Shown here: piece after piece, positions 3,326 through 38,934 of the stretch
How the letters are laid out: each line of letters opens with the position of its first letter
Numbering within the stretch: position 1 is the stretch's first letter
Source of the DNA: a virus
DNA: 39,249 nt
Reading direction: 5' to 3' (one strand)
Virus record (IMG/VR): IMGVR_UViG_3300049825_000266
Span: 1-39,249 of that record
The notes under the pieces: model-generated
Databases searched by the model: none
Told to the model about the DNA's origin: nothing
Seen by the model: only the letters and a program-made list of their open reading frames with translations
Program-made: the position numbers and the translations under genes

Positions 3326-4043
3326 ATGCGCTTGTCTCCTTTGCTATGATGGGGGCCGCGGTGCGTAGCTTGCCTATCTCTGTCCGTAACTGGGTGAGGG
3401 TAGGCATCTGGCCATCCTTCTTGTAACGCCAGTCCTTCATCCACACCTTTTCCAGAAAGCTCTTTGCTTCCTCTAACGTGTAGCCTGCGTTCTTCAATAT
3501 GCCGATGGTCTGCGCGACTTGTGCCTTCTCTTTAGCCCCAAGGGTTTTGTAATCCCAAGCTACGATTGCACAAACCACACCAAACCATTCCTGTTGGTCA
3601 GTTAAAGGGGCAGGCGCAGCCAATACTTTATTTAGATCTTTGTTTATAAGATCTTTCTTTTGTGTGTCTACTTCGTTGACTAGTTTTGGCGACAACTGGT
3701 CTACTTCGTTGACTAGTGCTAGTCTACTTAGTTGACTGGTTGGTTTGTTTGACTGGTCTACTTCGTTGACTACCAGCGAGTAGATAAAAGTTTGGCCCGC
3801 GGGTTTCTTGTTGATAGTTCCGCGCTTAATCCCTGCCTCTACCCCGTTAATCACACCCTGCCTACTGAGTCCAGTTAGTTCCATGAGTTGGGATAGACTC
3901 AACTGATCGGCTGACTTGTGCCAACCAAAAGTTTTCCGTGCAATCGCCAGGGTTATCCGTAGCTCAGCTTCTTTCATGTCTGCCATGTGGTCATCGAGTA
4001 ACACATTGGGGATAGCTGTAAAATTTGGGCCTTCGTAGCTCAT
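3309..4043 (-). CDS. Lambda O-like replication initiator with internal origin
   Basis: 244 residues. The N-terminal 110 residues look like the phage replisome-organiser/O N-terminal winged helix (FTAIPNVLLDDHMADMKEAE, then ARKTFGWHKSADQLSLSQL and TGLSRQGVINGV). A flexible middle holds three VNEVD peptides, encoded by DNA iterons. The C-terminal part (from about 150) is helical and may contact the helicase loader. The start at ATG 4043 overlaps the upstream stop (ATGA). As in lambda O, the origin appears to sit inside the initiator gene. It is followed by the methylase and the helicase loader, the usual partner. The family call rests on visible similarity and gene order. Confidence 0.75.
   Translation of the reverse strand: MSYEGPNFTAIPNVLLDDHMADMKEAELRITLAIARKTFGWHKSADQLSLSQLMELTGLSRQGVINGVEAGIKRGTINKKPAGQTFIYSLVVNEVDQSNKPTSQLSRLALVNEVDQLSPKLVNEVDTQKKDLINKDLNKVLAAPAPLTDQQEWFGVVCAIVAWDYKTLGAKEKAQVAQTIGILKNAGYTLEEAKSFLEKVWMKDWRYKKDGQMPTLTQLRTEIGKLRTAAPIIAKETSAYASFG
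3621..3665. other. AT-rich tract, probable DNA-unwinding element of origin
   Basis: A 45-bp stretch dominated by A and T, with AGATCT at both sides of TTGTTTATA, lying directly next to the iterons on the side toward the 3' end of the initiator gene. This is the same relative order as in the lambda origin (iterons, then AT-rich region). Unwinding activity is inferred. Confidence 0.6.
3666..3772. repeat. Four iterons, probable origin of replication
   Basis: On the plus strand GTCTACTTCGTTGACTA occurs at 3666-3682, 3699-3715 and 3756-3772, and a variant GTCTACTTAGTTGACT at 3722-3737. Start-to-start spacings are 33, 23 and 34 bp, near whole helical turns. Each copy is an imperfect dyad (AGTC-AAC/GTT-GACT style arms). 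They encode the VNEVD repeats of the initiator. Number, placement inside the initiator and the neighbouring AT-rich tract match the lambda ori plan. Confidence 0.75.
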
Positions 4044-4492
4044 AGTAAATCGCTCTCCTTGAAGGGTAACAGGTCGGCGAAGTCGGCAGCTAAGTAATAA
4101 CCGTTGGTGTCTTTGATGTTTAGGTTGCGAATGATTCGCTTCAGCGTTGGTTTACTCTGGCCTGTCATCCGTTGCAGGATAGCCAGCGTTACCCATTTCT
4201 TACTTGGCGGCAGCGATGCGTTGTAGCGAGGAGCAAACCGCACGATGTATTCCACTTCCCAGTAGTCGCGCGCTTCAGTGTCCACTATCTCTACCACTGC
4301 GTGGCCATTAAATACCTTCTCGCCCTGGTTGTAGTGAGTCGCCACACGAAACCCTGTGTCAGCAGATTTACCCACGTAAACAATCTCATCATCTTGCAGA
4401 AGAAAGTAAATCCCTGGGCAACTCTCATACCCGCTGGCAAAAAACACAATCTGTTGTTCACTGAAATTAAGTTTGTCTGTTCGTACTATCAT
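4040..4492 (-). CDS. GIY-YIG nuclease-domain protein
   Basis: 150 residues from ATG 4492. The first half carries a compact GIY-YIG-like core: GIYFLLQDDEIVYVGKSAD (about 28-46), then an arginine (GFRVATHYNQ) and a later E (DYWEVEYIVRFAP) spaced like the catalytic Arg and Glu of this fold. The C-terminal part (TLAILQRMTGQSKPTLKRI) resembles a small HTH or DNA-binding segment. It may be a homing-type or repair-type DNA nuclease; small phage GIY-YIG proteins vary in role. The gene is coupled to the replication initiator by ATGA. Its start is overlapped by the GGCGACAGGA motif, a predicted target of the antisense RNA at 5234-5457. Confidence 0.65.
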   Translation of the reverse strand: MIVRTDKLNFSEQQIVFFASGYESCPGIYFLLQDDEIVYVGKSADTGFRVATHYNQGEKVFNGHAVVEIVDTEARDYWEVEYIVRFAPRYNASLPPSKKWVTLAILQRMTGQSKPTLKRIIRNLNIKDTNGYYLAADFADLLPFKESDLL

Positions 4493-4531
4493 GGTCCTGT
4501 CGCCTTTCACTATAGGTTCACGTTGTCCGCA
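4493..4531 (-). promoter_or_regulatory. Leader with sRNA-target motif at GIY-YIG gene start
   Basis: The minus-strand leader reads GTGTGCGGACAACGTGAACC, six bases, then GAAAGGCGACAGGA, two bases and ATG. GGCGACAGGA (4504-4495) overlaps the ribosome-binding region. Both blocks recur in the leader at 6431-6467. The ten-mer is complementary to the loop of the RNA at 5234-5457. Confidence 0.55.
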
Positions 4532-4540
4532 CACCGCAAC

Positions 4541-4741
4541 CTACCTGTACAACTCTCTTGCCTCTTCCCGTTCTGCTTCCCGCTTGCGGAACCATGCCGC
4601 AAACGCTTCGTCTTGGTCCAGAATACTTTCGATGAAGTCCTCAGCGTTGAGCGCATATCCCGGCACCTTGTCCCACTTCACCCTATCCCCTGGCCCTGAT
4701 GCCTCACTGATAGGGCTGGTCGGTACTGGTCTATAACCCAT
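4541..4741 (-). CDS. Small acidic/helical hypothetical protein
   Basis: 66 residues from ATG 4741, three bases after the upstream stop. The N-terminus is proline/glycine-rich (GYRPVPTSPISEASGPGD); the C-terminal half is a charged helix (EAFAAWFRKREAEREEARE). No family recognised. It lies between another small gene and the GIY-YIG gene in the early-left operon; its ribosome site is weak, so translation probably depends on coupling. Confidence 0.6.
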   Translation of the reverse strand: MGYRPVPTSPISEASGPGDRVKWDKVPGYALNAEDFIESILDQDEAFAAWFRKREAEREEARELYR

Positions 4742-4744
4742 GTC

Positions 4745-4948
4745 TCACCACGCAATTCGATAATCAGGTTTACGGTCTTCCCACTCAGCCGCTAGTCCTT
4801 CGGTAAAAACAAAGGCCAGTGCGTAGGCGGTTGATGTGGAACAGCCGAACAGCAAGCATGTGTCCACCATCCACATCCCTAGTTCATTCAGCGCCTCACC
4901 TCTTTTTGCGGGGTCGGCTAGCTTCTCTTGAATCTTTCGCTTATCCAT
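4745..4948 (-). CDS. Small hypothetical protein (67 aa)
   Basis: The start was placed at ATG 4948 behind GGGTGAGGAT, because the longer reading from 5050 crosses a hairpin and is not protein-like. The product begins MDKRKIQEKLADPAKRGEAL and then has a mildly hydrophobic helix (TCLLFGCSTSTAYALAFVF). It is probably a small helical protein. First gene downstream of the long non-coding gap on the minus strand. Function unknown. Confidence 0.6.
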   Translation of the reverse strand: MDKRKIQEKLADPAKRGEALNELGMWMVDTCLLFGCSTSTAYALAFVFTEGLAAEWEDRKPDYRIAW

Positions 4949-5221
4949 ATCCTCACCCTTCCGGGGAGGGTGGTTGTCCCCTCCCCTTCTACAAAGGAGA
5001 TACAATGTTCTTCCTTCGGGATTCCCCTGGGTTACAGGCCAGGTACACACTTCCCCCGCTTGACGTGGTGGTTCATTCCTACCCGTCTACGTCATCCTCC
5101 TTTTCTCAAGAGGCCCACCACGCAGGAAGACAAAACAATTGCTTACACCCCTGTGCAGGATGTAAGACAATTAACGTAGAATGTAAATGATTCATTCTTT
5201 ACTTGTTGTTAATAATCGTGG
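4949..5221. other. Intergenic region with hairpin and dyad; no convincing gene
   Basis: On the minus strand this is the leader of the gene starting at 4948; on the plus strand it precedes the predicted RNA. It holds a perfect 8-bp stem (GGGGAGGG at 4963-4970 with CCCTCCCC at 4979-4986) and a larger imperfect dyad centred near 5154 (CTTACA at 5142 with TGTAAG at 5161, extended by AATTG/CAATT). CTTAC/GTAAG also forms the arms of the operator at 6013-6033. A plus-strand ORF (5005-5190, 61 codons) has a good ribosome site but an unconvincing protein, so it is not called. Confidence 0.5.
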
Positions 5222-5227
5222 TATATA
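5219..5227 (+). promoter_or_regulatory. Extended -10 promoter for the predicted RNA
   Basis: TGGTATATA is an extended -10 element (TGn plus TATATA). The hexamer 17 bp upstream (TTACTT) is a poor -35, as is often tolerated with an extended -10. Expected transcript start is about 5234. The same GTGGTATA context occurs at the promoter at 10539-10547. Confidence 0.5.
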
Positions 5228-5233
5228 GTGAGG

Positions 5234-5457
5234 ACGCGATGCGCCATCACGTGATGTTAAGGTGCTTCGTGGGTATGCAAAACGAATAGGTTCCTGTCGC
5301 CAACAAGTCACTATTCTTTTGCAGTGTGCGGTAAAGGGCATGATATAACTACCTTATACCGCGCGTCAAGTGCAGTAAGTTTACGGTAAGCATCTTGTAA
5401 GGATTCCGCACCCTTGCAAGAGGGAGAAGCGTCTATCCGAAAGGGTGGGCGCTTTTT
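5234..5457 (+). ncRNA. Predicted structured antisense sRNA
   Basis: A non-coding stretch of about 225 nt between an extended -10 promoter and a strong terminator. Its core is a 13-bp hairpin, TGCAAAA-c-GAATAG (5276-5289) with CTATTCTTTTGCA (5311-5323), presenting a 21-nt loop (5290-5310) that contains TCCTGTCGCC. That decamer is the exact complement of GGCGACAGGA found over the ribosome sites of four genes (4492-, 6473+, 7123+, 21824-). Further stems: GCGCC/GGTGC near 5241-5264 and GTGCGGTA (5326) with TACCGCGC (5356-5364 region). Several stems contain G-T pairs that are valid only in plus-strand RNA, which fixes the orientation. Likely role: repression of translation by loop-to-mRNA pairing. 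The structure is read by eye; the function is inferred. Confidence 0.6.
5428..5457 (+). terminator. Rho-independent terminator of the predicted RNA
   Basis: AGCGTCTATCC (5428-5438) pairs along all 11 positions with GGGTGGGCGCT (5443-5453), using four G-T pairs, around a GAAA tetraloop, and is followed by a run of T (5453-5457). On the minus strand the G-T pairs become A-C mismatches and no T run follows, so it acts on plus-strand transcripts. No protein gene ends here, which supports a separate RNA gene. Confidence 0.8.
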
Positions 5458-5460
5458 CTA

Positions 5461-5709
5461 TTACAGGGTAGCCATGTGTTTATCTAGCCATTGCTGGTGT
5501 TCAGTCCATCCCTCGCCGGTCGGGTCGAGCATTGGGTGATAACTGCCGTACTGGTCAAAGCCCTTGTGTTGTGGATGCGCGTATATGCTTGACTCACTCC
5601 ACCCACAACTAGGGCAACCCCAGGGGCCATATATAATCCCAACGCCCACATCAACCGACTCGCGGTAGCAGTCGTCGCCACACTCTTCGCATTCCATTGC
5701 ATCTTCCAT
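5461..5709 (-). CDS. Small zinc-ribbon-like protein
   Basis: 82 residues from ATG 5709, overlapping the repressor stop (TAATG). It has two Cys pairs, CEECGDDC near the N-terminus and CPSC around residue 32, a typical zinc-ribbon arrangement, then an aromatic and histidine-rich tail (YAHPQHKGFDQYGSYH). It is co-transcribed with the HTH regulator. A role as a small DNA-binding or transcription-modulating factor is possible; no family was recognised. Confidence 0.65.
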   Translation of the reverse strand: MEDAMECEECGDDCYRESVDVGVGIIYGPWGCPSCGWSESSIYAHPQHKGFDQYGSYHPMLDPTGEGWTEHQQWLDKHMATL

Positions 5710-5933
5710 TACTCTACCTCCTGGATAAATTCTGCAATCGTCATCGGCGCAACCTTGGCCGCATCCGCCAACTTCTTGATCGTGCTTGCCCGCGCTGGTT
5801 CCCCATTGAATACACGGAACACCGTGTTTATTCCCAGGCTAGCGCCGGTCGCAATGTCCAAGTTTGTTAGCCAGCCCTTCTTTACTGCCAGCAACTCTTT
5901 TAGATCATCTGGACTTTTTAACTTCATGTACAT
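5709..5933 (-). CDS. Cro/CI-type HTH transcriptional regulator
   Basis: 74 residues from ATG 5933 (GGAG four bases upstream; ATG 5927 is an alternative). It is a compact HTH domain of the lambda-repressor type: WLTNLDIATGASLGINTVFRV forms the helix-turn-helix, and ARASTIKKLADAAKVAPMTIAEFI the following helices. There is no dimerisation or peptidase domain, so it resembles Cro or a short repressor. It is the first gene of the leftward operon and sits beside a perfect operator between two promoters, so it probably represses one or both. No integrase was found, so lysogeny is not established. Confidence 0.75.
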   Translation of the reverse strand: MYMKLKSPDDLKELLAVKKGWLTNLDIATGASLGINTVFRVFNGEPARASTIKKLADAAKVAPMTIAEFIQEVE

Positions 5934-5969
5934 ATCACTCCTCTCCTGTTTGAGTTTAACTTCCACTAC

Positions 5970-5998
5970 AGTCTAGCACATCTCTATTAGTATGTCAA
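5970..5998 (-). promoter_or_regulatory. Leftward early promoter
   Basis: On the minus strand: TTGACA (5998-5993), a 17-bp spacer ending GATGTGC, then TAGACT (5975-5970). TGC before the -10 gives an extended -10. The same -35, spacer length and TAGACTGT occur in the rightward promoter at 6048-6076. It drives the HTH regulator and the early-left operon. Confidence 0.85.
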
Positions 5999-6012
5999 TG
6001 GGGCGCAGGTAA

Positions 6013-6033
6013 TAATCTTACGGTGTAAGATTA
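6013..6033. promoter_or_regulatory. Perfect 21-bp operator
   Basis: TAATCTTAC-GGT-GTAAGATTA has perfect 9-bp inverted arms. It lies between the -35 boxes of the two divergent promoters, so one bound repressor dimer could affect both. The adjacent HTH protein is the obvious ligand (inferred). Confidence 0.8.
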
Positions 6034-6047
6034 ATTATCTAATGGGG

Positions 6048-6076
6048 TTGACAAGGGGTGCAGGATGTGATAGACT
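6048..6076 (+). promoter_or_regulatory. Rightward early promoter
   Basis: TTGACA (6048-6053), a 17-bp spacer, then TAGACT (6071-6076) with TGA just before it, making an extended -10. It is near-identical in plan to the leftward promoter. The transcript would start near 6083 and lead into the gene at 6114. Confidence 0.85.
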
Positions 6077-6113
6077 GTCATCAGGCAACAGTAACAATTC
6101 AAGGAGGTGAGTG

Positions 6114-6425
6114 ATGGATATTCGATGGTGTGTACATTGCGATAAGAAAGATGCCCGCATCGCAGAACTGGAAGCGCAATTGCTCGAGGCTGAACTTACA
6201 ACGGGGGAAGCACTGAACCAACTTGATGACGCTGAAGCTACCGCTGCCCGCATCGCTGAACTAGAGGCGCAGTTCAAGTGGCAGGAAGAGGCCCATCAGC
6301 TTGCCTTACGCAAGGCAGGGGCAGAGATGGAGGCGCTGCAAGAAAAGAACGCTGAACTGGAAGGGCAGTTAGCGCACAAGACAATGATTCTCGACCACTT
6401 GTACGAGGTTGGTGTGATTAAGTAA
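6114..6425 (+). CDS. Coiled-coil protein with N-terminal cysteine pair
   Basis: 103 residues from ATG 6114 with an ideal ribosome site (AAGGAGGTGAGTG). It begins MDIRWCVHCDKKDARIAELE, giving one CxxC, and then is an almost continuous coiled coil with ARIAELEAQ repeated twice (about 14 and 45). The length and heptad pattern point to a dimeric rod. First gene of the early-right operon, so expressed immediately; a role in regulation or takeover is plausible but unproven. No family recognised. Confidence 0.7.
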   Translation: MDIRWCVHCDKKDARIAELEAQLLEAELTTGEALNQLDDAEATAARIAELEAQFKWQEEAHQLALRKAGAEMEALQEKNAELEGQLAHKTMILDHLYEVGVIK

Positions 6426-6426
6426 C

Positions 6427-6467
6427 TTCAGTGTGCGGAACACTGAACAAAAAGAAAGGCGACAGGA
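6427..6467 (+). promoter_or_regulatory. Hairpin leader with sRNA-target motif
   Basis: TTCAGTGT and ACACTGAA form a perfect 8-bp stem around GCGGA (6427-6447), followed by an A-rich linker and GGCGACAGGA (6458-6467), which supplies the AGGA ribosome site for ATG 6473. The blocks GTGTGCGGA, TGAAC and GAAAGGCGACAGGA recur in the same order before the GIY-YIG gene. Confidence 0.6.
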
Positions 6468-6472
6468 TAATT

Positions 6473-6784
6473 ATGTTAGGATTACAACAAGTTCCATCGA
6501 CAGAGGTAGCGCTGTCCAACATCATGGCGACGAAACAATTTAAGCTATTCGTGGCAGTGCCAGATGGGGATATGTGGCGGTGGCGGGTTAGCTGGCCCTA
6601 TCATCCCGGCAAGTGTGGGATGACAAGCAAGGAGTTATTCGCCACACGCCAGGCCGCTGAATGGGCAGCTCATGTTATCAGCGGTTGGGAGCGCCCCAGT
6701 GCGGTGATGGTCGGCGCATTTGAGAGTGTCCCTGCATCAGCAGGCCAGCCCGCCGAGATGCGGGAAGAACATGTGGGTGAGTGA
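6473..6784 (+). CDS. Hypothetical early protein (103 aa)
   Basis: Starts at ATG 6473, six bases after AGGA within the GGCGACAGGA motif; the GTG at 6431 lies inside the leader hairpin and is rejected. The middle part (KQFKLFVAVPDGDMWRWRV, later FATRQAAEWAAHVISGW) has the look of a small beta-beta-alpha protein of the kind that modifies or senses nucleic acids. No family recognised. It ends in TGATG overlap with the next gene. Its translation is predicted to be sensitive to the antisense RNA. Confidence 0.65.
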   Translation: MLGLQQVPSTEVALSNIMATKQFKLFVAVPDGDMWRWRVSWPYHPGKCGMTSKELFATRQAAEWAAHVISGWERPSAVMVGAFESVPASAGQPAEMREEHVGE

Positions 6785-6996
6785 TGGACGTAGGCGCAGA
6801 CCCACAGATTGACATCTACCAGTTTGATTATGGTTTCGATGTGGCTATCTCACGGATGCGCATTCTCCCTGATGGGGAGATAGGGCGGCGAGTGAATCAG
6901 GTTGGCCCTGTCACTCGCTCGACTCTCATTCGTGCCCAACGTATGCAGTTGAAATTGTATGATGCAATGAAAGGACAATCCCCCGATGTCAGTTAG
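6784..6996 (+). CDS. Small hypothetical protein (70 aa)
   Basis: ATG 6784 overlaps the previous TGA by one base behind GTGGGTGAG. The product starts MDVGADPQIDIYQFDYGFD and ends with a basic/polar helix (STLIRAQRMQLKLYDAMKG). No motif or family recognised. It overlaps the following small zinc-protein gene by 11 bases. Probably expressed with the recombination genes. Confidence 0.6.
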   Translation: MDVGADPQIDIYQFDYGFDVAISRMRILPDGEIGRRVNQVGPVTRSTLIRAQRMQLKLYDAMKGQSPDVS

Positions 6997-7108
6997 TTGG
7001 AACAGCAACATCGTTAAGCGTGTGCTCTCGTACCTGGGGTGGACTCGTTGTTCGGATAAGTGCCCAGGGTATGACCCGACATATGGCCCGTGTCCGTATT
7101 GTAATTGA
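6986..7108 (+). CDS. 40-aa zinc-knuckle protein
   Basis: ATG 6986 follows AAGGA at about ten bases and overlaps the previous gene; the stop TGA is at 7106. The product begins [19 protein letters not shown] and contains C-x3-C and C-x2-C (CSDKC, CPYC) separated by a short Gly/Pro/Tyr loop, a classic minimal zinc site. It ends directly before the Bet gene leader. Function unknown; tiny zinc proteins are common in phage early regions. Confidence 0.55.
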
Positions 7109-7113
7109 AAGTA

Positions 7114-7123
7114 GGCGACAGGA
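7114..7123 (+). promoter_or_regulatory. sRNA-target motif at the Bet/RecT start
   Basis: GGCGACAGGA whose last A is the first base of the ATG at 7123; the ribosome site (TAGG) is its first part. Exact complement of the loop at 5292-5301. Confidence 0.55.
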
Positions 7124-8361
7124 TGACAGAAATTATTCGAGTAGACAACAACGCAATCCAAGTGTTTACGGATGAACGCGTTGACCTGATCAAGCGCACG
7201 ATCGCCAAGGGGGCAAGCGACGACGAACTGCAATTGTTCGTGGCACAGTGTGAGCGTACTGGCCTTGACCCATTCAGCCGTCAGATTTACGCCATCAAGC
7301 GTTGGGATAATCGCGAGAAGCGGGAAGTCATGCAGACCCAAGTCAGCATTGACGGGTTCCGTTTGGTGGCAGAGCGTACCGGAAAGTATGCCGGACAACT
7401 TGGGCCCTTATGGTGTGGCCCTGATGGGGCATGGCGGGAAGTGTGGCTAGAGCGCACACCGCCCGCAGCGGCCAAGGTGGGAGTGCTGAAGTCTGATTTC
7501 TCGCAGCCGCTTTGGGGAGTAGCGCGATGGGATAGCTACGTGCAGACCAACAAGGACGGCAAGGTCACTGTCATGTGGGAGAAGATGGGTGACGTGATGC
7601 TAGCCAAGTGCGCCGAGTCTCTGGCCCTACGCAAAGCATTCCCGCAAGACTTGAGCGGCCTATACACCGCCGAGGAAATGGCCCAGGCAACCACGCCCGA
7701 TCCCATTATGGTTGATGTGAGTACGGGCGAAATCCTCATGACGAAACAGAACGGCCTACAACGGGCGCAAAATCAACCGCAATCGAATAGTACCACTACG
7801 CAGCCGCAAGCAGCACAGCGCCCCGCACAGCCAAGCAAGAGTGAGCTAGATAGCATTACTTTGGACAACGTTCTAGAAGTTGATGATAGTTGGGATGGGA
7901 TTGTGGCGGAAGTGGAAGCGAACCGCACGCAGGATCGCAAGGCCAAGGCCAAGGCGCAGCCCTTCGTGTGGCCGGTGAATGATGACGCGCTGGAGATGTG
8001 TTCGTCGTTTATCAACTTACCGGAGCTTACCAAGCAGCAGGAGAAGTTAATCCACGCCATCACCGAAGCCGACAAGGGCAGCAAAGGCCCAATGTCAAAC
8101 GAAGTGAAGGAAGGCAAGAAGTCCAGTCACTATAGTACATTGGTTTGGCAACTCGATGCCCGATACGATAAGGGATCGCATGGTGCCATCCTTAGCGCAC
8201 TGACGCAGCGCAGCATCAATGCTGACAACCTGCCTGGCTATGAGGTGAAGAAGCTGTTGGACTGGTTGTTCAAGCCTGAAGACTTCGCCCCGCAACTTGT
8301 GGTACTCGACGGCCTGGTCGAAGCGCTGAAGCTGGACCTACAGCAACTTGAGGTGGCGTGA
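7123..8361 (+). CDS. bet: Bet/RecT-family single-strand annealing protein
   Basis: Phage recombinase that anneals complementary single strands and promotes recombination or replication-linked repair. With the start at 7123 it has 412 residues. The N-terminal 200 match the Bet/RecT core: [20 protein letters not shown], then [39 protein letters not shown] and [20 protein letters not shown]. The C-terminal half is a Gln/Pro/Ser-rich linker followed by a helical region ([18 protein letters not shown]) not found in minimal Bet proteins (lambda Bet is about 260 residues). No exonuclease partner was recognised. RusA follows immediately. The GGCGACAGGA motif at its start predicts control by the sRNA. 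Confidence 0.88.
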
Positions 8362-9203: not shown

Positions 9204-9783
9204 ACTGATGACGACTGAGCAAGCCCTAGAGCGTGCGCAGAAGCTCAACTGTTTTACGCCTGTTGGCCTAGAGTTGCACAACCACCACACCAGAGAAGAC
9301 TACTACGCCATCGCCATCCAAATAAAAATGCTGGGCGATACGGCCGGATACTGTCGGGCAGACTTAGCCTACCGCATCAAGGTGCTTTACCCGAACGACT
9401 ACAAAGAGCGCTGGGCAGAGTTGGCGAACTTGTTGGGCAAAGTACCACCCACCATTGCTAACGACGCTCTAGTGGGCCAGAAGTACAGCCACGAAGAACG
9501 CCGCTACTGGATGGAAGCGGGAGTAAGTTACTCAGCAATGCGTATCTGTGCGCCGATAGAACCACGTGAGGCGAGAGACATGTACCTTGCTGACTGTGCG
9601 CAGGGGTTGACAGTGGCCGGACTGTGCAAGAAATTGTACGGGGAAACCACCAAGCTACTCCCATCACGTGATGCGCCGCCACTGAGGGAGAGGGTAGGGG
9701 GGTGGCTGGATACCCTGAATGAAAGTGACAGAGGGTATGCAGAGTACTATGTGAAGTTGTTTGTTGACTGGTTGGAGGGATAG
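9196..9783 (+). CDS. Hypothetical DNA-metabolism-region protein (195 aa)
   Basis: Overlaps the previous gene by eight bases; MTTEQ (ATG 9208) is an alternative start. The middle is helical with a region RADLAYRIKVLYPNDYKERWAELANLLG and later MRICAPIEPREARDMYLADC and TVAGLCKKLYG, giving an impression of HTH-like or ParB/Spo0J-core-like helices, but no diagnostic motif is certain. It might bind DNA. It sits between recombination genes and a zinc ribbon protein. Confidence 0.6.
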   Translation: MNELMTTEQALERAQKLNCFTPVGLELHNHHTREDYYAIAIQIKMLGDTAGYCRADLAYRIKVLYPNDYKERWAELANLLGKVPPTIANDALVGQKYSHEERRYWMEAGVSYSAMRICAPIEPREARDMYLADCAQGLTVAGLCKKLYGETTKLLPSRDAPPLRERVGGWLDTLNESDRGYAEYYVKLFVDWLEG

Positions 9784-17013: not shown

Positions 17014-17894
17014 ATGTTACCTATTGCCGCTCTTGATAATCGAATCCGCATTGGCCGCGACGATACCCAGCCCCGCCAAAACTTCTCAACGTTATTTTGG
17101 AACAGTACCAATTGTTTCTCATACTGCCCCGTCTCCCGGCTCGATGGATTGCTGAGATACATCTGCATCAGGTACATGCGGGTGTTGTCGTAAAGTAGAT
17201 TGAGTAAGGCCATACTCTCCACCCCTAGCCCCCATATCACGGTAGCCCCAAGGGAATGACTCGCCGCGGTAGAGCCATTCAGTCCCCTCGACAAGTTGGT
17301 TAGTGTGATAGTGCTTGCGCCTTCCGTGTAACCGGAATACTGTAGCCATTCTGTATCTACCTTCACATACCCCACGCGCCCGACACTGGGCTTACTGGCA
17401 ATCGTCAGGCTCGTATCGTCGCTATCAATGCCTGCCGATAGGGTAGGCGTAGCGGTAGGCACTGGCCCAGGTGCGGCCCAATGGATGATGCGCCCTTCAG
17501 TGGTCGCCTGGTCCACTAGTCCACTATGGTGGGAGTAGGCGAGGCGCAGGGTCATCGCGCCGCTACTGCTTGGCTCGATGTCATAGGCTTGGATGTCAGC
17601 CCACGTCTCATCATTCAGGCCTATGTCTGCCCAGTCGTAGAGCGTGCGCCGTTGTTGGGGCTGAATGGTCTTGCTGTCGATGTAGGAGGGGAGGGTATAG
17701 TCATAGGTACCCGCCACCCACCCACCCGTTACCGTGTAAATGTAGGGTGTACGAACCCGTCCCTGCCATGACTGCAAGGCCATGCTCATCGCCGCATAGA
17801 TATTGCTATCCGTCCAGCGGTCCGGCGTTGGCTCCATCAACAATGTGCGGATACTGGTCAACAATTCCGTTTGCGTGTACAGGTAAGGTTGCAT
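17010..17894 (-). CDS. Putative head-tail adaptor protein
   Basis: 294 residues; ATG 17894 overlaps the upstream stop (TAATG). The N-terminus (TQTELLTSIRTLLMEPTPDRW, then DSNIYAAMSMALQSWQGR) and the C-terminus (ESMALLNLLYDNTRMYLMQM, YEKQLVLFQNNVEKFWRGW) are helical. They flank an inserted beta region (TSLTIASKPSVGRVGYVKVD), as in connector proteins that dock under the portal in podoviruses (P22 gp4/T7 gp11-like plan). Its position between small head proteins and the tailspike agrees. Sequence identity to a named family was not established. Confidence 0.55.
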   Translation of the reverse strand: MQPYLYTQTELLTSIRTLLMEPTPDRWTDSNIYAAMSMALQSWQGRVRTPYIYTVTGGWVAGTYDYTLPSYIDSKTIQPQQRRTLYDWADIGLNDETWADIQAYDIEPSSSGAMTLRLAYSHHSGLVDQATTEGRIIHWAAPGPVPTATPTLSAGIDSDDTSLTIASKPSVGRVGYVKVDTEWLQYSGYTEGASTITLTNLSRGLNGSTAASHSLGATVIWGLGVESMALLNLLYDNTRMYLMQMYLSNPSSRETGQYEKQLVLFQNNVEKFWRGWVSSRPMRIRLSRAAIGNM

Positions 17895-18862
17895 TAGCTC
17901 GTTGTCACCGTCGTCCACTTGTTGAATCCAACCACACACCCGTCATTGAGTAGCGCGTGCGCCACCTCTTTTCCTGGGGTGGCAACCGTAACCGGGCAAC
18001 TGGCCGGCGCTTGGAATGTGCCGCTCGGCGCAGCATTTGTGCCGCTGACAATGATCGTGCCTGCCGTTGCCGTGCGCGGGACGATAGCCGCCTGATACAG
18101 CCCCCAGAGGATCGCATTGACTTGCGCTTGCGTTAGCGCGTTGCTCTGCATTTGGAAATTGTTCGTTGTCGTCCAAAGCGCAAAATCGTTGGCTGCAATG
18201 GTGAATGCATAGCCCGCCGGCATCGCGTACAGGAGGAAAGTCGTTGGTCGCCAGGCCGAGACATCCGCTGAATTGAAAGTTCCGGCATAGCCCGCCGGCA
18301 TCGCTTGCAGGTAGAAAGTCGTTGGTCGCCAGGCCGAGACATCCGCTGAATTGAAAGTTCCGGCATAGCCCGCCGGCATCGCGTACAGGGAGAAAGTCGT
18401 TGGTCGCCAGGCCGAGACATCCGCTGAATTGAAAGTTCCGGCATAGCCCGCCGGCATCGAGAACAGGTAGAAAGTCGTTGGTCGCCAGGCCGAGACATCC
18501 GCTGAATTGAAAGTTCCGTCCCTTAATGCCGTGGCGATAAACGTTACGACATTTATCAACGATTTAATGTTGGCACTATTTAGCGTCACCTTGGCATCAC
18601 GAATATCAAACGCTGTGACTGACGCTGGGCTACCAATTGTTACCGTGTACACCCCGATAGCGGCATACACGTGCGTGCGTAGTGCCGTGCCGGTGTAAGT
18701 GTCGGTGCTATCATCGCCCCAATTAATATTCGTTGCTGCGCTCACACCAAATGAATTGATGGTCAGTGTTTGACTTGCGCCGGTGGTGGTGCAAAGGAAC
18801 GTCGCGCCCGTTGCGCCCTGCTGTTGTAGGAACAAAGCGCGCCGACTCGGTACATTGCGCAT
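17894..18862 (-). CDS. PKD-domain protein with four near-identical 26-aa repeats
   Basis: 322 residues. A PKD-like fold is seen near 45-85 (NINWGDDSTDTYTG ... HVYAAIGVYTVTI). Then come four tandem 26-residue units, each GTFNSADVSAWRPTTF plus a short variable piece plus MPAGYA, resembling the BspA/DUF285 class of surface repeats. A C-terminal stretch (ALTQAQVNAILWGLYQAA) resembles the end of that class. Proteins with such repeats are often exposed and ligand-binding, so this may decorate the capsid or bind the host surface. The repeats differ only at a few codons. Confidence 0.65.
   Translation of the reverse strand: MRNVPSRRALFLQQQGATGATFLCTTTGASQTLTINSFGVSAATNINWGDDSTDTYTGTALRTHVYAAIGVYTVTIGSPASVTAFDIRDAKVTLNSANIKSLINVVTFIATALRDGTFNSADVSAWRPTTFYLFSMPAGYAGTFNSADVSAWRPTTFSLYAMPAGYAGTFNSADVSAWRPTTFYLQAMPAGYAGTFNSADVSAWRPTTFLLYAMPAGYAFTIAANDFALWTTTNNFQMQSNALTQAQVNAILWGLYQAAIVPRTATAGTIIVSGTNAAPSGTFQAPASCPVTVATPGKEVAHALLNDGCVVGFNKWTTVTTS
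18209..18520 (-). repeat. Four tandem 78-bp coding repeats
   Basis: Units 18209-18286, 18287-18364, 18365-18442 and 18443-18520. They are identical except at a cluster of bases that change residues 17, 19 and 20 of the unit (YLFS, SLYA, YLQA, LLYA), plus the unit edges. Near-identity with focused replacements suggests recent duplication followed by selection or a copying process. Confidence 0.9.
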
Positions 18863-21833: not shown

Positions 21834-21847
21834 TCTCCTGTCGCCAA
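21834..21847 (-). promoter_or_regulatory. sRNA-target motif at the capsid gene start
   Basis: TTGGCGACAGGA, plus a following G that makes AGGAG, lies ten bases before the capsid ATG. It is the longest match (12 bases) to the complement of the loop at 5290-5310. Confidence 0.55.
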
Positions 21848-25700: not shown

Positions 25701-28700
25701 AATGCCCGCATCGCGTGCGGCCTGCCGTAGTGCTTTCAGGTCGTTGGCCGGTGCTGCCTTGCGCTGTAGTCGCTGCTGGCCCATGTCGTAATACTGCTGC
25801 AATAGTCGGTCTACATCAGCCTGATTGTCAATACGCTGGCCTGCAATGGTCGTTCCGTACAAATCCTCGAACTTACGTTCTGGCACGCTGACAACGCCAT
25901 TGCGAGTATAGGATTGAATAGCGCGGTCGATGGTGAGATAGCCGCCCTCGCCCTTGGCTACTCTATCCCACTCTGCCCGAATCGTTCCGCGCGTCTCTGC
26001 CCCTCCACTGACTGCTGCTGCTGCCCGTTCTGCGCGTAAGCCCTGCGCCTCATCTAGCGCACGACTGCCAGGGAAGCCCACATCAGCGCTGGCCAAGCGT
26101 TCCACGTTCGCATCAAACACGTCAGCCGTAGCGCCTGCTTCTTCCAGTGCGGCCACTGCTTCGGGCGGATAGGGGTTCTGTGCGGCGTTCTGTGCCAGGT
26201 AATCATCAATGGCCTTGTTCGTGTTCGCTGGCAGTGCTTGGGCTGGCTTCGGCTTGGGTGCGTTGTAGTAGTTGGCCAGGTCGTCGGTAGCCTGTGTTGC
26301 GCCACCAGCAGCAACACTCGTTACACCCTTAGCCTCTAGCTTAATGCCCTCCTCGGTGATGTGGCGCGTGGACTGTTCCCACACTGCGCGCTCGTACTGG
26401 CGTTGTTGGCGGCGTACTTCATTGCGAACCTGAAAGAACTTCTCCCACTCCATATCATTATTGGCTTTTAACGCAACCTGCCGCGCTTTGTCAAGATATA
26501 TGTTTGCGTCTGCGCCTGCCATCTGAATATTGTGTTCAGCCGAAACAATAAAATCCATCGCATCGACATTCAGGAAGCGAATCGCGGCGGCATAGGCGCG
26601 CGCTACCGCGCGGTCGCTGATAGCCCGCCCCGCGTCGATAACCTGTTTTAACCGTGGGTCATAGCGCCCGCTCCCCGGCTCAAGCTTCATCGTCTCCCAT
26701 AGCCGCGCTTCGTTCTGGCTCGCGGTACGCTCCAAGATGTCCCAACGTGGCGCGGTTGCCTGTCCACTACTGATCGCCGCGCTGCCATCTTCCAACAGTT
26801 GATTAACACGCATGTTTCGATCAGTCCACAGCCGATTGTTCGCCGCCCAATGGTCTTGCCATGCTTTGTTTTTCGCTGCCCCCGTTAATCCATTCGCAGC
26901 ATCGGCCATCTCATTCAGTTGGTGACGTACCGCCGCAGTCAGGTCGTTGACTTGGCCCCAAATGTTGTAGAGAAGATAGCGGTTCTTAGGAGCGGCTGAT
27001 TCGGTAACAAGCTGTGTTAGGGTTGCCATCCGCCCCTGCGTCGCGGTCATCTCGTCGGCCAGTTGTTTCGTCGTGGCCTGCGCTACCTCTGCCGGGACAT
27101 CGCCATATTTGGTAGCCATGTTCGCCGCTTGTTTAATCTCGGCGGCATCCTGTAGTACTTCCTGCTTCTGCCAAACGTAGCGGGGCAGGGCGCTTGGGCC
27201 ACTGGCTATCAACTCATCCCAATACTGCGCCGTTTCCTGCCCCCACGCCTGCACTGCCTTCACTGCCTCATCACGTGATGTCGCCGTGCGGATAATGGTA
27301 TTCAATCCCTCTACCATATCGGGCGGAATCGCATCAAGCCAAGTAGGATTGACATCGGATAGGGCCAGTACTTTGGTTTGGCCGTTGAGTAGTTTATTAA
27401 ACTCGCTAGTTAAATCTCCACCCTGTAACCCAGTCTCATAGAGATGGGTGATGATGCGCCGTGCGTCCTTCTCCGCTACACCAGCGGCCTGTAGAATGGG
27501 CGTCAGTGTTTGGGTAAGGGTATTGCGCCCCACATTGCGCAAAGCCTTTGTAGCGGCACTGTAGTAAACCCGCTTGCCAACTTGTTCATCGATCTGGCCA
27601 TAGGCGCGCTTGAGGAACTTGAATGGCCCCTTGCTGCTAATCTGACTAGCACTGCTGGCTGCACTCTCGACACTGGCAAAGCCCCGGCTGGTTGGGTCCA
27701 CGCCAAACTGCTTAGTTATCCAATCATCAATATACTTGCTGCCGCGTAGGCTCACCATGCCGTCGCCTGCTGCGGTAGCCAAGCCGCCTATGATGTTAGT
27801 GGCCCAAGTGCCGGGTGATGAAAGGATGTAGAAGGGGGAAACAATGGCCCGTTGGAATGCGCCGACTTCACCAAGCAAACTTTTCTGTGCTGCAACCCCG
27901 CCCCCTACTTCCTTCTGTAGCTTGCGCGCTTCGGCCATCGTCATCGGTTCAGACTTGCCGATAACCTGCTTGGCTGCGTCTACATATTCCAGGGTGTATT
28001 GACTCGGCTTGCCGGTACTGATGATACGCGCCGTGGTTGCGCCGGTGGGAATGTCTGCCGCTTCATCCGCCACGTTGAAGAACTTGTAGCCCGCTTGATT
28101 CATTTCGTCCATGAAGGTAGTAACAAAGTCTACCTTGTTGAGAATCGGCCCATCCTTCAGCACAGGAGAAGCCAGGATGTTCTGTGCTGCTTGCTGGTAA
28201 ATGCGCAGGGGTTCTTTAATGCGCTGTAGGTTCATGCCCCCAAAGCGCACTAGCCCCTTCTCATCCATGCGCGCGAGGAGGCCAGGGGATTGAAAGCCTG
28301 CCCCCGGCACACCCGTAATTAACTTGCGCGGGTCAGTGGCCAGTTGGGTCAACAGGTAAGCCGCATCTCTTGGCGTCTCCACATCGCCAAGAAGATTTAC
28401 GGTGTAGCGCAGCATGTTGTCGGTTGCCATGTTTGCGCGTGCCGTGCCTATGCTCCGCAGATTCCAAGCTTTGTTGTAGGTGCTGCGTTGTGCTGCTACT
28501 TGGGCGGTGTTCTCGGCTGTCACCACCATGTCATCCAAGGCACGCACAACCCGTTCCGTTGGTGTCGCCACTTCATTCGCTACTCTGGTCAGCCTCCGCG
28601 CTGCCGGGGTCATGCCGGTTAGGGCGAAGACATTACCTAGTAGGTCCGTAACATCGGGCGTCAACACTTCCATGATAAGTTGCGCGACGATGTTGGTGTT

Positions 28701-31530: not shown

Positions 31531-33462
31531 CTACTGTTGATTCCCCATCATCGCCAATTCTTCGCCCGATCCAATCGGTAGCCCCATAATCTGCGCAAAC
31601 AATGCCGGATCCATGTCAGGCGGCATCCCCATACTTTCGCCTTGCATTTGGCCTTGCATCTCGGCGGGGATTCCCCCACCCATCGGCCCTACCAGTTCAG
31701 CCGGTGGCTGAATAGGCGGCGGCCCAGGCGGCATTGGCGGTCCTTGTGGTGGCATAGGTGGCCCACCCATCGGCGGCATCCCTGGGGGTGGCCCTTGCAT
31801 TTCAGGTGGGGGTGGTGGCATCTCGATAGCTATACCCAACGACTCGGACGCAATACGATAGGCCATCTGTTCGATGGGCGTACCCTTGACAAGCGCTTCC
31901 CACGTCTCTGGGTGCGATTGGATCAGGCGGGTAACGCTAAGCACCTTCTGTATCTCTGGATGGTCAAGAGCCATCTCTGCATAGATGCGGTTTTGCTCGT
32001 CCGTAGGTACAGTAATCTTCAGGTATTTATCACGCATCAACTGCTTGGAGATAATCTTGCTGTCGGTTAGCCGAATGCCAAGGGTCTGTAGCGCAATGTC
32101 ATCTTGCAGCGAGGATACCTTTAGCTCTACAGCGTTCTCGTAGTAGCCATCAATTTGTTTGCGGTAAAGACAAGTACGGTAAAGCTTCTCGTCGCCCTCG
32201 TTGCGCCCCCACAGTTCAACCCCTTCGTCGTCGTCATCAAAGGTGTCCACCAGAGCCAGGGCCAATTCGTTCAACCACATCAACATGCGCTCTAGGCTAT
32301 CCCGTACAGCCTCTACGCGTCCGGTTGCAGCCTGGGACAGGATATTAACCCCGTACCCAGCCTGCATATTACCGGCGTCGCCATATAGCACGCCTGGGAA
32401 AGTTGACTGCTGAATATCGGCGTCAACCTTGGCCAACATTGATTCCAACAGTTGGGCGTTCGCTTGTGGGCGCACTTCCTGAATCTTCGTGCCTTCTACC
32501 GCGTGTTGGGTAGAGCCTGGGCGCACAACAATATCGTTCTGCTCATGCCCCATCGGTGACTCGACAAGGAAAAATGGCCAAGTGTACCATAGAACAGCAG
32601 TTCCAAGGTTTGAGTTAAGGCGGCACTTGTACTGCCAACTGCCATTGATGGGGTGCAGGATGGACAAGCCACGGTAGGCTTTGTCTGCGGTAGGTGCAGA
32701 ATCACCACGTGCTTCAATGATGGGCACGATGGGGTAGTCGGTGCGGCGTGGGGCAAGGGCAAATTCATCGTCGATAATAACCGCATTCCACACGCTGTAA
32801 TCAACGGGGTTGGTGTACCAGAAGTCAATCACGGTAACAAGGTGTGACTCGTTGGTGACAGGGTTCGTCGGCTTTGGGATATCCCATTTTTTCAGGTTGG
32901 GATAACGTTGGCGAATGTCCACCTTCTCCGCCTCGTACTTGTGAAAGGCCCATTCGGTAAATAATGGCCCCTTGCGATAGCCAACTTCAAAAGGATCTAA
33001 GGCCCGAATGAGGATCGGGAAAGCCTTCTTGCGTAGCATGGGTGGCATATCTTCTTTTACCCACTTTGCTTCTACATAGGCTTTCCCTCTGACGGCCAGA
33101 AACCATTTGAGGTCATCAACGAAATTCGTCCCTTGTTGCTTGTTAACGCGCGCATACATCGCGGTTAACCATCGCTCTACTTGCTGGCTGTCCTCGTCCG
33201 CTTGTTCCTCTTCTTTGCGCGGTGGAATGTCAATCTTTGGCTGCGAAGGAATCAGGCGCATCAAGAGATTGACCACGTTGTACGGGTCGCTGGTCGTCAC
33301 CTGTTCGCGGCCATCCTGTAAGACAGTTTCCTCCCAACTCTTCTTAAAGCCCGCGTCCAGCTTCCACATTTTTTCCCATGTGTTGGCCATCTTGCGCCAA
33401 GTAGAGTTCTCGTCTTCGGTTCGTGATACGCGGTCCAGTATGTCGTCAATCTCTAAGCGCAT
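31531..33462 (-). CDS. Portal protein
   Basis: 643 residues; forms the dodecameric ring through which DNA enters and leaves the head. ATG 33462 was chosen because the ORF upstream runs through the leader hairpin. The N-terminus is helical (DILDRVSRTEDENSTWRKMA). The body has the typical portal order (NVVNLLMRLIPSQPKIDIPP, then the wing region and LMWLNELALALVDTF, which fits the stem/clip helices). The last 110 residues are Pro/Met/Gly-rich and probably disordered. It follows terminase in the usual order. Its leader carries an attenuator. Confidence 0.8.
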   Translation of the reverse strand: MRLEIDDILDRVSRTEDENSTWRKMANTWEKMWKLDAGFKKSWEETVLQDGREQVTTSDPYNVVNLLMRLIPSQPKIDIPPRKEEEQADEDSQQVERWLTAMYARVNKQQGTNFVDDLKWFLAVRGKAYVEAKWVKEDMPPMLRKKAFPILIRALDPFEVGYRKGPLFTEWAFHKYEAEKVDIRQRYPNLKKWDIPKPTNPVTNESHLVTVIDFWYTNPVDYSVWNAVIIDDEFALAPRRTDYPIVPIIEARGDSAPTADKAYRGLSILHPINGSWQYKCRLNSNLGTAVLWYTWPFFLVESPMGHEQNDIVVRPGSTQHAVEGTKIQEVRPQANAQLLESMLAKVDADIQQSTFPGVLYGDAGNMQAGYGVNILSQAATGRVEAVRDSLERMLMWLNELALALVDTFDDDDEGVELWGRNEGDEKLYRTCLYRKQIDGYYENAVELKVSSLQDDIALQTLGIRLTDSKIISKQLMRDKYLKITVPTDEQNRIYAEMALDHPEIQKVLSVTRLIQSHPETWEALVKGTPIEQMAYRIASESLGIAIEMPPPPPEMQGPPPGMPPMGGPPMPPQGPPMPPGPPPIQPPAELVGPMGGGIPAEMQGQMQGESMGMPPDMDPALFAQIMGLPIGSGEELAMMGNQQ

Positions 33463-38427: not shown

Positions 38428-38934
38428 TTACCGTGCCTCCAATGCGGTAACACGATCCTCTAATAGCTTGACACGTTCTTCAATGCTTAGTGTCGGCGGC
38501 ACAACAACGGGTGGAAGGACTGCGCCTTGGGTGAGGCGAAACGTAACCTTAAATGAATGGTGGCCCCAACTGTTCCAGATCTCCCCACCAGGCCCCAACT
38601 CATCAGGATGCCGCGTATGCATCCCCCATACAATGTCACTGAGACCCCCCACCATCGACACACCGATAGTATCGTTGATATACATCTCAATCATGCCGTG
38701 GCCTAACTCAAGAGGCCCACGCTTGTCTAAAGCCCGATACTCAACAAGCGATGCAGCAGAACGATTAAACCGCACATGCGCCCCCTCTACCCGCTGCCCC
38801 TGCTCGTTGAACGCATCAATGTATACGCCGCTTTTGCCGCGGTTCTCATCCGGCGTCAAGTGCCGCACTTCCGCACGCCACACCAACCCCCCGCTAACCC
38901 GCTCAATCGTTACACCGTAGTACATGTTATTCAC
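38428..38934 (-). CDS. Beta-sandwich protein with C-terminal coiled coil
   Basis: 168 residues from GTG 38934, overlapping the previous stop (GTGA). A beta-rich body (GVTIERVSGGLVWRAEVRHL, SGVYIDAFNEQGQRVEGAHV) with an HxHxD-free binding-like face (GHGMIEMYINDTIGVSM; WNSWGHHSFKVTFRL) is followed by a Pro linker and a trimer-like coiled coil (SIEERVKLLEDRVTALEA). It resembles carbohydrate-binding or lysin C-terminal modules in form. A virion or host-surface binding role is possible; family unknown. Confidence 0.6.
   Translation of the reverse strand: MNNMYYGVTIERVSGGLVWRAEVRHLTPDENRGKSGVYIDAFNEQGQRVEGAHVRFNRSAASLVEYRALDKRGPLELGHGMIEMYINDTIGVSMVGGLSDIVWGMHTRHPDELGPGGEIWNSWGHHSFKVTFRLTQGAVLPPVVVPPTLSIEERVKLLEDRVTALEAR

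Follow-up and report, generated by a model that had tools for sequence, protein, structure and literature searches.

The locus and its candidate small RNA

The 39,249-nt window (the whole stretch of viral DNA that was analysed) holds at 5234-5457, on the plus strand, a unit that resembles a gene for a small RNA (sRNA): it has no long plus-strand ORF, and the first plus-strand gene after it lies at about 6111. On the opposite strand an HTH operon reads leftward, with a promoter-like site at 5998-5970 and a terminator-like site at 5166-5142, both from a consensus scan. The features of the unit and its surroundings are the following.

5142..5166, minus strand: terminator-like site, consensus scan only
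5219..5227, plus strand: promoter-like extended -10, TGGTATATA, read from the sequence; weak
5234..5457 (ends approximate), plus strand: candidate small RNA, from the plus-strand fold (z -4.9), the terminator at its end and the lack of a long ORF
5276..5323, plus strand: hairpin of 13 bp with one bulged C, in the minimum free energy and centroid structures
5290..5310, plus strand: 21-nt loop GTTCCTGTCGCCAACAAGTCA in the predicted fold, with the antisense core TCCTGTCGCC at 5292-5301
5422..5459, plus strand: intrinsic-terminator-like stem (17 bp in the fold) and U-tract

An earlier note, made from the sequence alone, had assigned the RNA to the plus strand, and the plus strand is indeed favoured because the fold of 5228-5461, compared with shuffles, reaches z -4.9 there and z -2.05 on the minus strand. 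The 13-bp hairpin with a 21-nt loop that the note described was recovered in the fold with one bulged C (arms TGCAAAA-(C)-GAATAG and CTATTC-TTTTGCA, 5276-5289 pairing with 5311-5323). Inside the loop, the predicted fold contains a weak 3-bp inner pairing and leaves CGCCA unpaired, and opening the loop is predicted to cost 2.4 kcal/mol.

Other parts of that description stood in part. The terminator at the end of the unit is strong in the fold, as claimed, with its stem and U-tract, but it was missed by the consensus terminator scan. Likewise, the extended -10 is present where it had been placed, but it lacks a good -35 and was not called by the consensus scan; an sRNA promoter at this site is plausible only. 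The claim that no protein gene is attached holds for long plus-strand ORFs, but a 16-codon ORF (MRHHVMLRCFVGMQNE) starts at 5239-5241, with GAGG 5 nt upstream. A search of the window against Rfam gave no family match, and noise only at a relaxed threshold.

A repeated tag at four start regions

One 10-mer, GGCGACAGGA, occurs in five exact copies in the two strands of the window, which bears out the earlier report of a repeat shared by four start regions and the loop. Four copies are in gene sense and overlap start regions; the fifth is at 5292-5301 on the minus strand, where the plus-strand RNA shows the tag complement TCCTGTCGCC inside the 21-nt loop. The four tagged starts are listed below.

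4495..4504, minus strand: tag of the GIY-YIG-like gene (4040-4492), exact match, 2 nt before ATG 4492
6458..6467, plus strand: tag of an early ORF of unknown function, exact match, 5 nt before ATG 6473
7114..7123, plus strand: tag of recT, exact match, overlapping the ATG (7123)
21836..21847, minus strand: tag of the major capsid gene, 12-nt match TTGGCGACAGGA, before ATG 21824

The 12 matched bases at the capsid gene, which had been claimed before, include the 10-nt core GGCGACAGGA at 21836-21845(-). Two of the gene names given earlier are well founded, namely recT (Pfam RecT, E 4e-29) and the capsid gene (Pfam SU10_MCP, E 1e-33), but the GIY-YIG name for gene 4040-4492 is weak: the Pfam GIY-YIG match (E 0.006) is under the cut-off, and there are distant phage matches, one of them annotated as GIY-YIG.

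From the first base of the tag to the ATG, the distances in the window are 9, 12, 15 and 21 nt. Bases resembling a Shine-Dalgarno (SD) sequence overlap the 5′ end of the tag (AAAGG) at the GIY-YIG-like gene and at 6473, and its 3′ end (AGGAG) at the capsid gene. Such variable spacing, together with the different SD registers, suggests an antisense target and not a fixed SD or spacing signal. Moreover, recT and the capsid gene have their tags in intercistronic gaps of 14 and 26 nt, respectively, which favours a function at the RNA level over one at the promoter level and disfavours a promoter or DNA operator at these two genes.

A tag that codes for an N-terminal extension was also considered and is excluded for the capsid gene, where an in-frame TAG separates the tag from the ATG. 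An inverted repeat, TTCAGTGT-GCGGA-ACACTGAA (6427-6447), closely precedes the tagged start at 6473 and is predicted to fold into a hairpin in the mRNA.

Chance expectation and pairing energies

The earlier note had put the expected number of copies of a given 10-mer at about 0.07, and an order-2 Markov model gives 0.068 for GGCGACAGGA, while dinucleotide shuffles have a mean of 0.15 and a maximum of 2. In a hand-picked set of 49 start regions, no 10-mer other than those overlapping it recurs as often as GGCGACAGGA, which is shared by 4 starts; unrelated 10-mers reach at most 2. Start regions make up about 2% of positions, and the placement of all four sense copies within them has p about 1e-7; the accidental presence of the tag complement in this particular loop has an expectation of about 1e-5.

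As a control for the choice of the loop, every 21-nt stretch on both strands was scored for the number of distant start regions to which it has an exact 10-mer complement. In the whole window, four are reached by the loop at 5290-5310 alone, and the stretches complementing three are all antisense strands of the targets themselves. The four tagged starts also form the top four loop duplexes among the 49 starts, a performance equalled by 1 of 300 shuffled loops.

Duplexes between the loop and its targets in the window are calculated at -21 to -24 kcal/mol, and the net pairing after opening costs at -14.7 to -17.2 kcal/mol. In the predicted mRNA folds, the recT and capsid tags are partly paired. 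Duplex energy by itself is unspecific, as many coding places reach similar values through interrupted pairing.

The tag in related phages, and the likely host

Searches with terminase and portal sequences led to three close relatives, whose terminases share 95% (L040), 89% (L041) and 84% (L042) amino acid identity with that of the window, and whose fragments cover neither the sRNA region nor the four tagged genes. L042 has two exact copies of GGCGACAGGA, both at the starts of other genes: one (position 3444) precedes the start, ATG 3459, of a 168-aa gene, and the other (position 1531) precedes ATG 1546, which opens a short frame that resembles a membrane-protein gene interrupted by a homopolymer frameshift. 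Both extend to TTGGCGACAGGAG, as does the capsid tag, and with the loop of the window they would pair at -29.4 and -29.8 kcal/mol, more strongly than the four targets in the window do. The window has a homologue of the 168-aa gene too (38428-38934, minus strand), which carries no tag; the tag thus moves from one gene to another. When all viral contigs were scanned for TTGGCGACAGGAG-N3-6-ATG, 25 contigs were found, and L042 (=L077) is the only one with two tagged starts.

Three further observations concern these copies. In L042:1531-1730 the tagged 15-codon frame seems to resume in another frame after eight T, probably through a sequencing or assembly frameshift. The tag at 1531 is also within a short SD-preceded leader ORF. 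Finally, the six tags (four in the window, two in L042) are, by their first base, 9, 12, 15, 15, 15 and 21 nt upstream of the ATG, all of them multiples of three, which has a chance of about 1 in 243.

Outside these relatives, no near relative of 4400-7200 was found in phage records. The 29 viral loci with RecT relatives have recT without a tag at its start and without the sRNA, and queries with the capsid, RepO and GIY-YIG sequences returned no viral relatives. When a 16-mer from the loop was searched, it hit 9 contigs, about the chance number, none of them similar to the sRNA. The viral and cellular sequence collections searched yielded no sRNA homologue, and neither did 400 Chloroflexota genomes, where there were three short weak matches only.

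A Chloroflexota host is likely because the cellular homologues of the terminase are solely in Chloroflexota MAGs (14 MAGs, 37-40% identity). No close prophage was found at a cut-off of 1e-110, which also drops the 40% homologues.

Proposed mechanism and alternative explanations

The tag match, its departure from randomness, its placement, the predicted exposure of the loop and the repetition of the tag at L042 starts are all computed, and they support the earlier reading of loop-mRNA pairing that would block ribosomes. Specifically, we consider it probable (at roughly 0.72) that the plus-strand unit at 5234-5457 encodes an antisense sRNA of the phage that acts in trans and would keep the 30S subunit off several phage mRNAs. 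Its hairpin loop would present UUCCUGUCGCCAA, with the unpaired CGCCA as a possible pairing seed, and would pair over 10-13 nt with the recurring tag (TT)GGCGACAGGA(G), which at least four phage mRNAs carry where translation starts (those of the GIY-YIG-like gene, the early ORF, recT and the major capsid gene). Such pairing would cover the Shine-Dalgarno sequence and/or the start codon, with the result that 30S subunits would be excluded and translation of the tagged genes lowered together. We infer from the sequence that the sRNA is transcribed, that it pairs in vivo and that the effect is repressive, and the timing is likewise inferred.

A repeated sequence over the start codons of several phage mRNAs is also how an operator of the RegA type would be expected to look (PMC3014915), and the tag might be the site of a translational repressor protein of the phage or the host, comparable to T4 RegA, with an accidental complement in the loop. 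The tag is kept in L042, where no sRNA is seen and the fragment is outside the sRNA region. We regard such a repressor as unlikely, given the expectation of about 1e-5 for an accidental exact complement, the flanks of the L042 copies that lengthen the complementarity to the loop, and the four window tags that form no conserved structure. RegA sites are themselves without clear sequence conservation (PMC3014915), and among the scanned proteins, which are part of those of the window, none was named as RegA-like.

SD-like bases (AAAGG or AGGAG) are within or abut every tag, which would fit an unusual ribosome-recruiting or enhancer element of phage genes, the sRNA being unrelated or otherwise employed. 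This is quite improbable: the distance from the first base of the tag to the ATG varies from 9 to 21 nt and the SD registers differ, the host-type 16S rRNAs examined end in the ordinary CACCTCCTTTCT tail, and two Chloroflexota 16S genes (L088 and L089) have no complement of the tag, carrying its sense sequence instead. Nor would an enhancer explain the loop match.

The small ORF with GAGG 5 nt upstream could encode a leader peptide of 16 codons and make the unit a leader or attenuator, and the unit's position opposite the leftward gene cluster could indicate cis-antisense control of that operon only, the tags being unrelated in both cases. We give these two possibilities slightly less weight still than the enhancer, since both would leave the match between loop and tags unexplained, and a leader would have no plus-strand gene after the terminator until about 6111.

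Scarcely credible is a loop aimed at host 16S rRNA, for although it complements the helix-41 hairpin (CCTGGCGACAGGAAGC) of two Chloroflexota 16S rRNAs over 12 contiguous and 17/19 bases, E is about 0.04 for the sRNA region alone, other places in the window match equally well, the site is a closed hairpin in the rRNA, and in a search of 400 Chloroflexota genomes at <=3 mismatches/20 nt this site was, among the matches listed, in G001 only; the complementarity is probably chance. In the 16S rRNAs of L088 and L089, CCTGGCGACAGGAAGC is a GNRA-type hairpin that holds the tag sequence.

The antisense sRNA itself may be embedded in wider control. A transcript of the leftward HTH operon would span the sRNA in antisense over its whole length and could titrate it, although its role as a sponge is speculative and based on the layout. 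More broadly, a phage-wide RNA regulon can be envisaged, in which one loop would coordinate recT (early) and the capsid gene (late) through an exchangeable 10-13-nt tag, related phages would tag different genes, and the HTH-operon transcript would act as the antisense sponge; we put forward this combined picture tentatively, at somewhat less than even odds.

Comparison with known phage regulators

Phage antisense RNAs described to date mostly control one gene each or host mRNAs, and within a phage it is chiefly proteins, e.g. T4 RegA, that are known to control translation at several genes. To our knowledge there is no earlier such case in a Chloroflexota-associated phage, and literature searches found none.

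A close parallel is C4 of P1/P7, an antisense phage RNA that has complementary bases in its loops and blocks the ribosome-binding site on a phage mRNA (PMC12197685). The likeness is in loop-borne pairing over a phage ribosome site, which is predicted here; the difference is that C4 acts on the ant mRNA, whereas here one loop fits four mRNAs by means of a repeated tag. As regards a relation to C4, there was no Rfam match of any kind and no ant-like gene among the scanned proteins. P22 sar is grouped with C4 as an antisense RNA that blocks ribosome sites, and sar and lambda OOP are both phage antisense RNAs controlling phage genes, with one described target each (PMC12197685), whereas the candidate sRNA would act in trans on several.

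VpdS (VP882), PreS (lambda) and 24B_1 (phi24B) are trans-acting phage sRNAs, as the candidate would be; they are described as Hfq-linked and mostly aimed at host mRNAs or one phage gene, VpdS and 24B_1 affecting phage genes, and for none of the three is a repeated exact tag over several of the phage's own starts described (PMC12197685). T4 RegA shares with the present case the control of many start regions by one phage regulator, as it occludes those of many phage mRNAs, but RegA is a protein (PMC3014915). The literature examined, PMC12197685 included, describes no RNA that pairs through one loop with an exact tag repeated on several genes of its own phage. If the antisense reading is true, one small RNA switches off several viral proteins together, and one RNA with a portable, repeated tag is a simple means of coordinating several phage genes; the reading also yields specific, testable predictions for compensatory mutations.

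Minor features of the window

The second-best pairing of the loop in the window, at -29.3 kcal/mol with G-U pairs included, is with about 32823-32844 on the plus strand, a site antisense to a putative portal gene and not an obvious mRNA target. A 12-bp palindrome, CATCACGTGATG, is present in 3 copies (5245-5256, 9662-9673 and 27269-27280), the first of them just within the 5′ end of the candidate sRNA and close to its putative promoter; it could be an operator or due to chance. Tandem repeats of about 78 bp are located at 18209-18513, inside a 322-aa ORF (17894-18862) in the tail-gene region.
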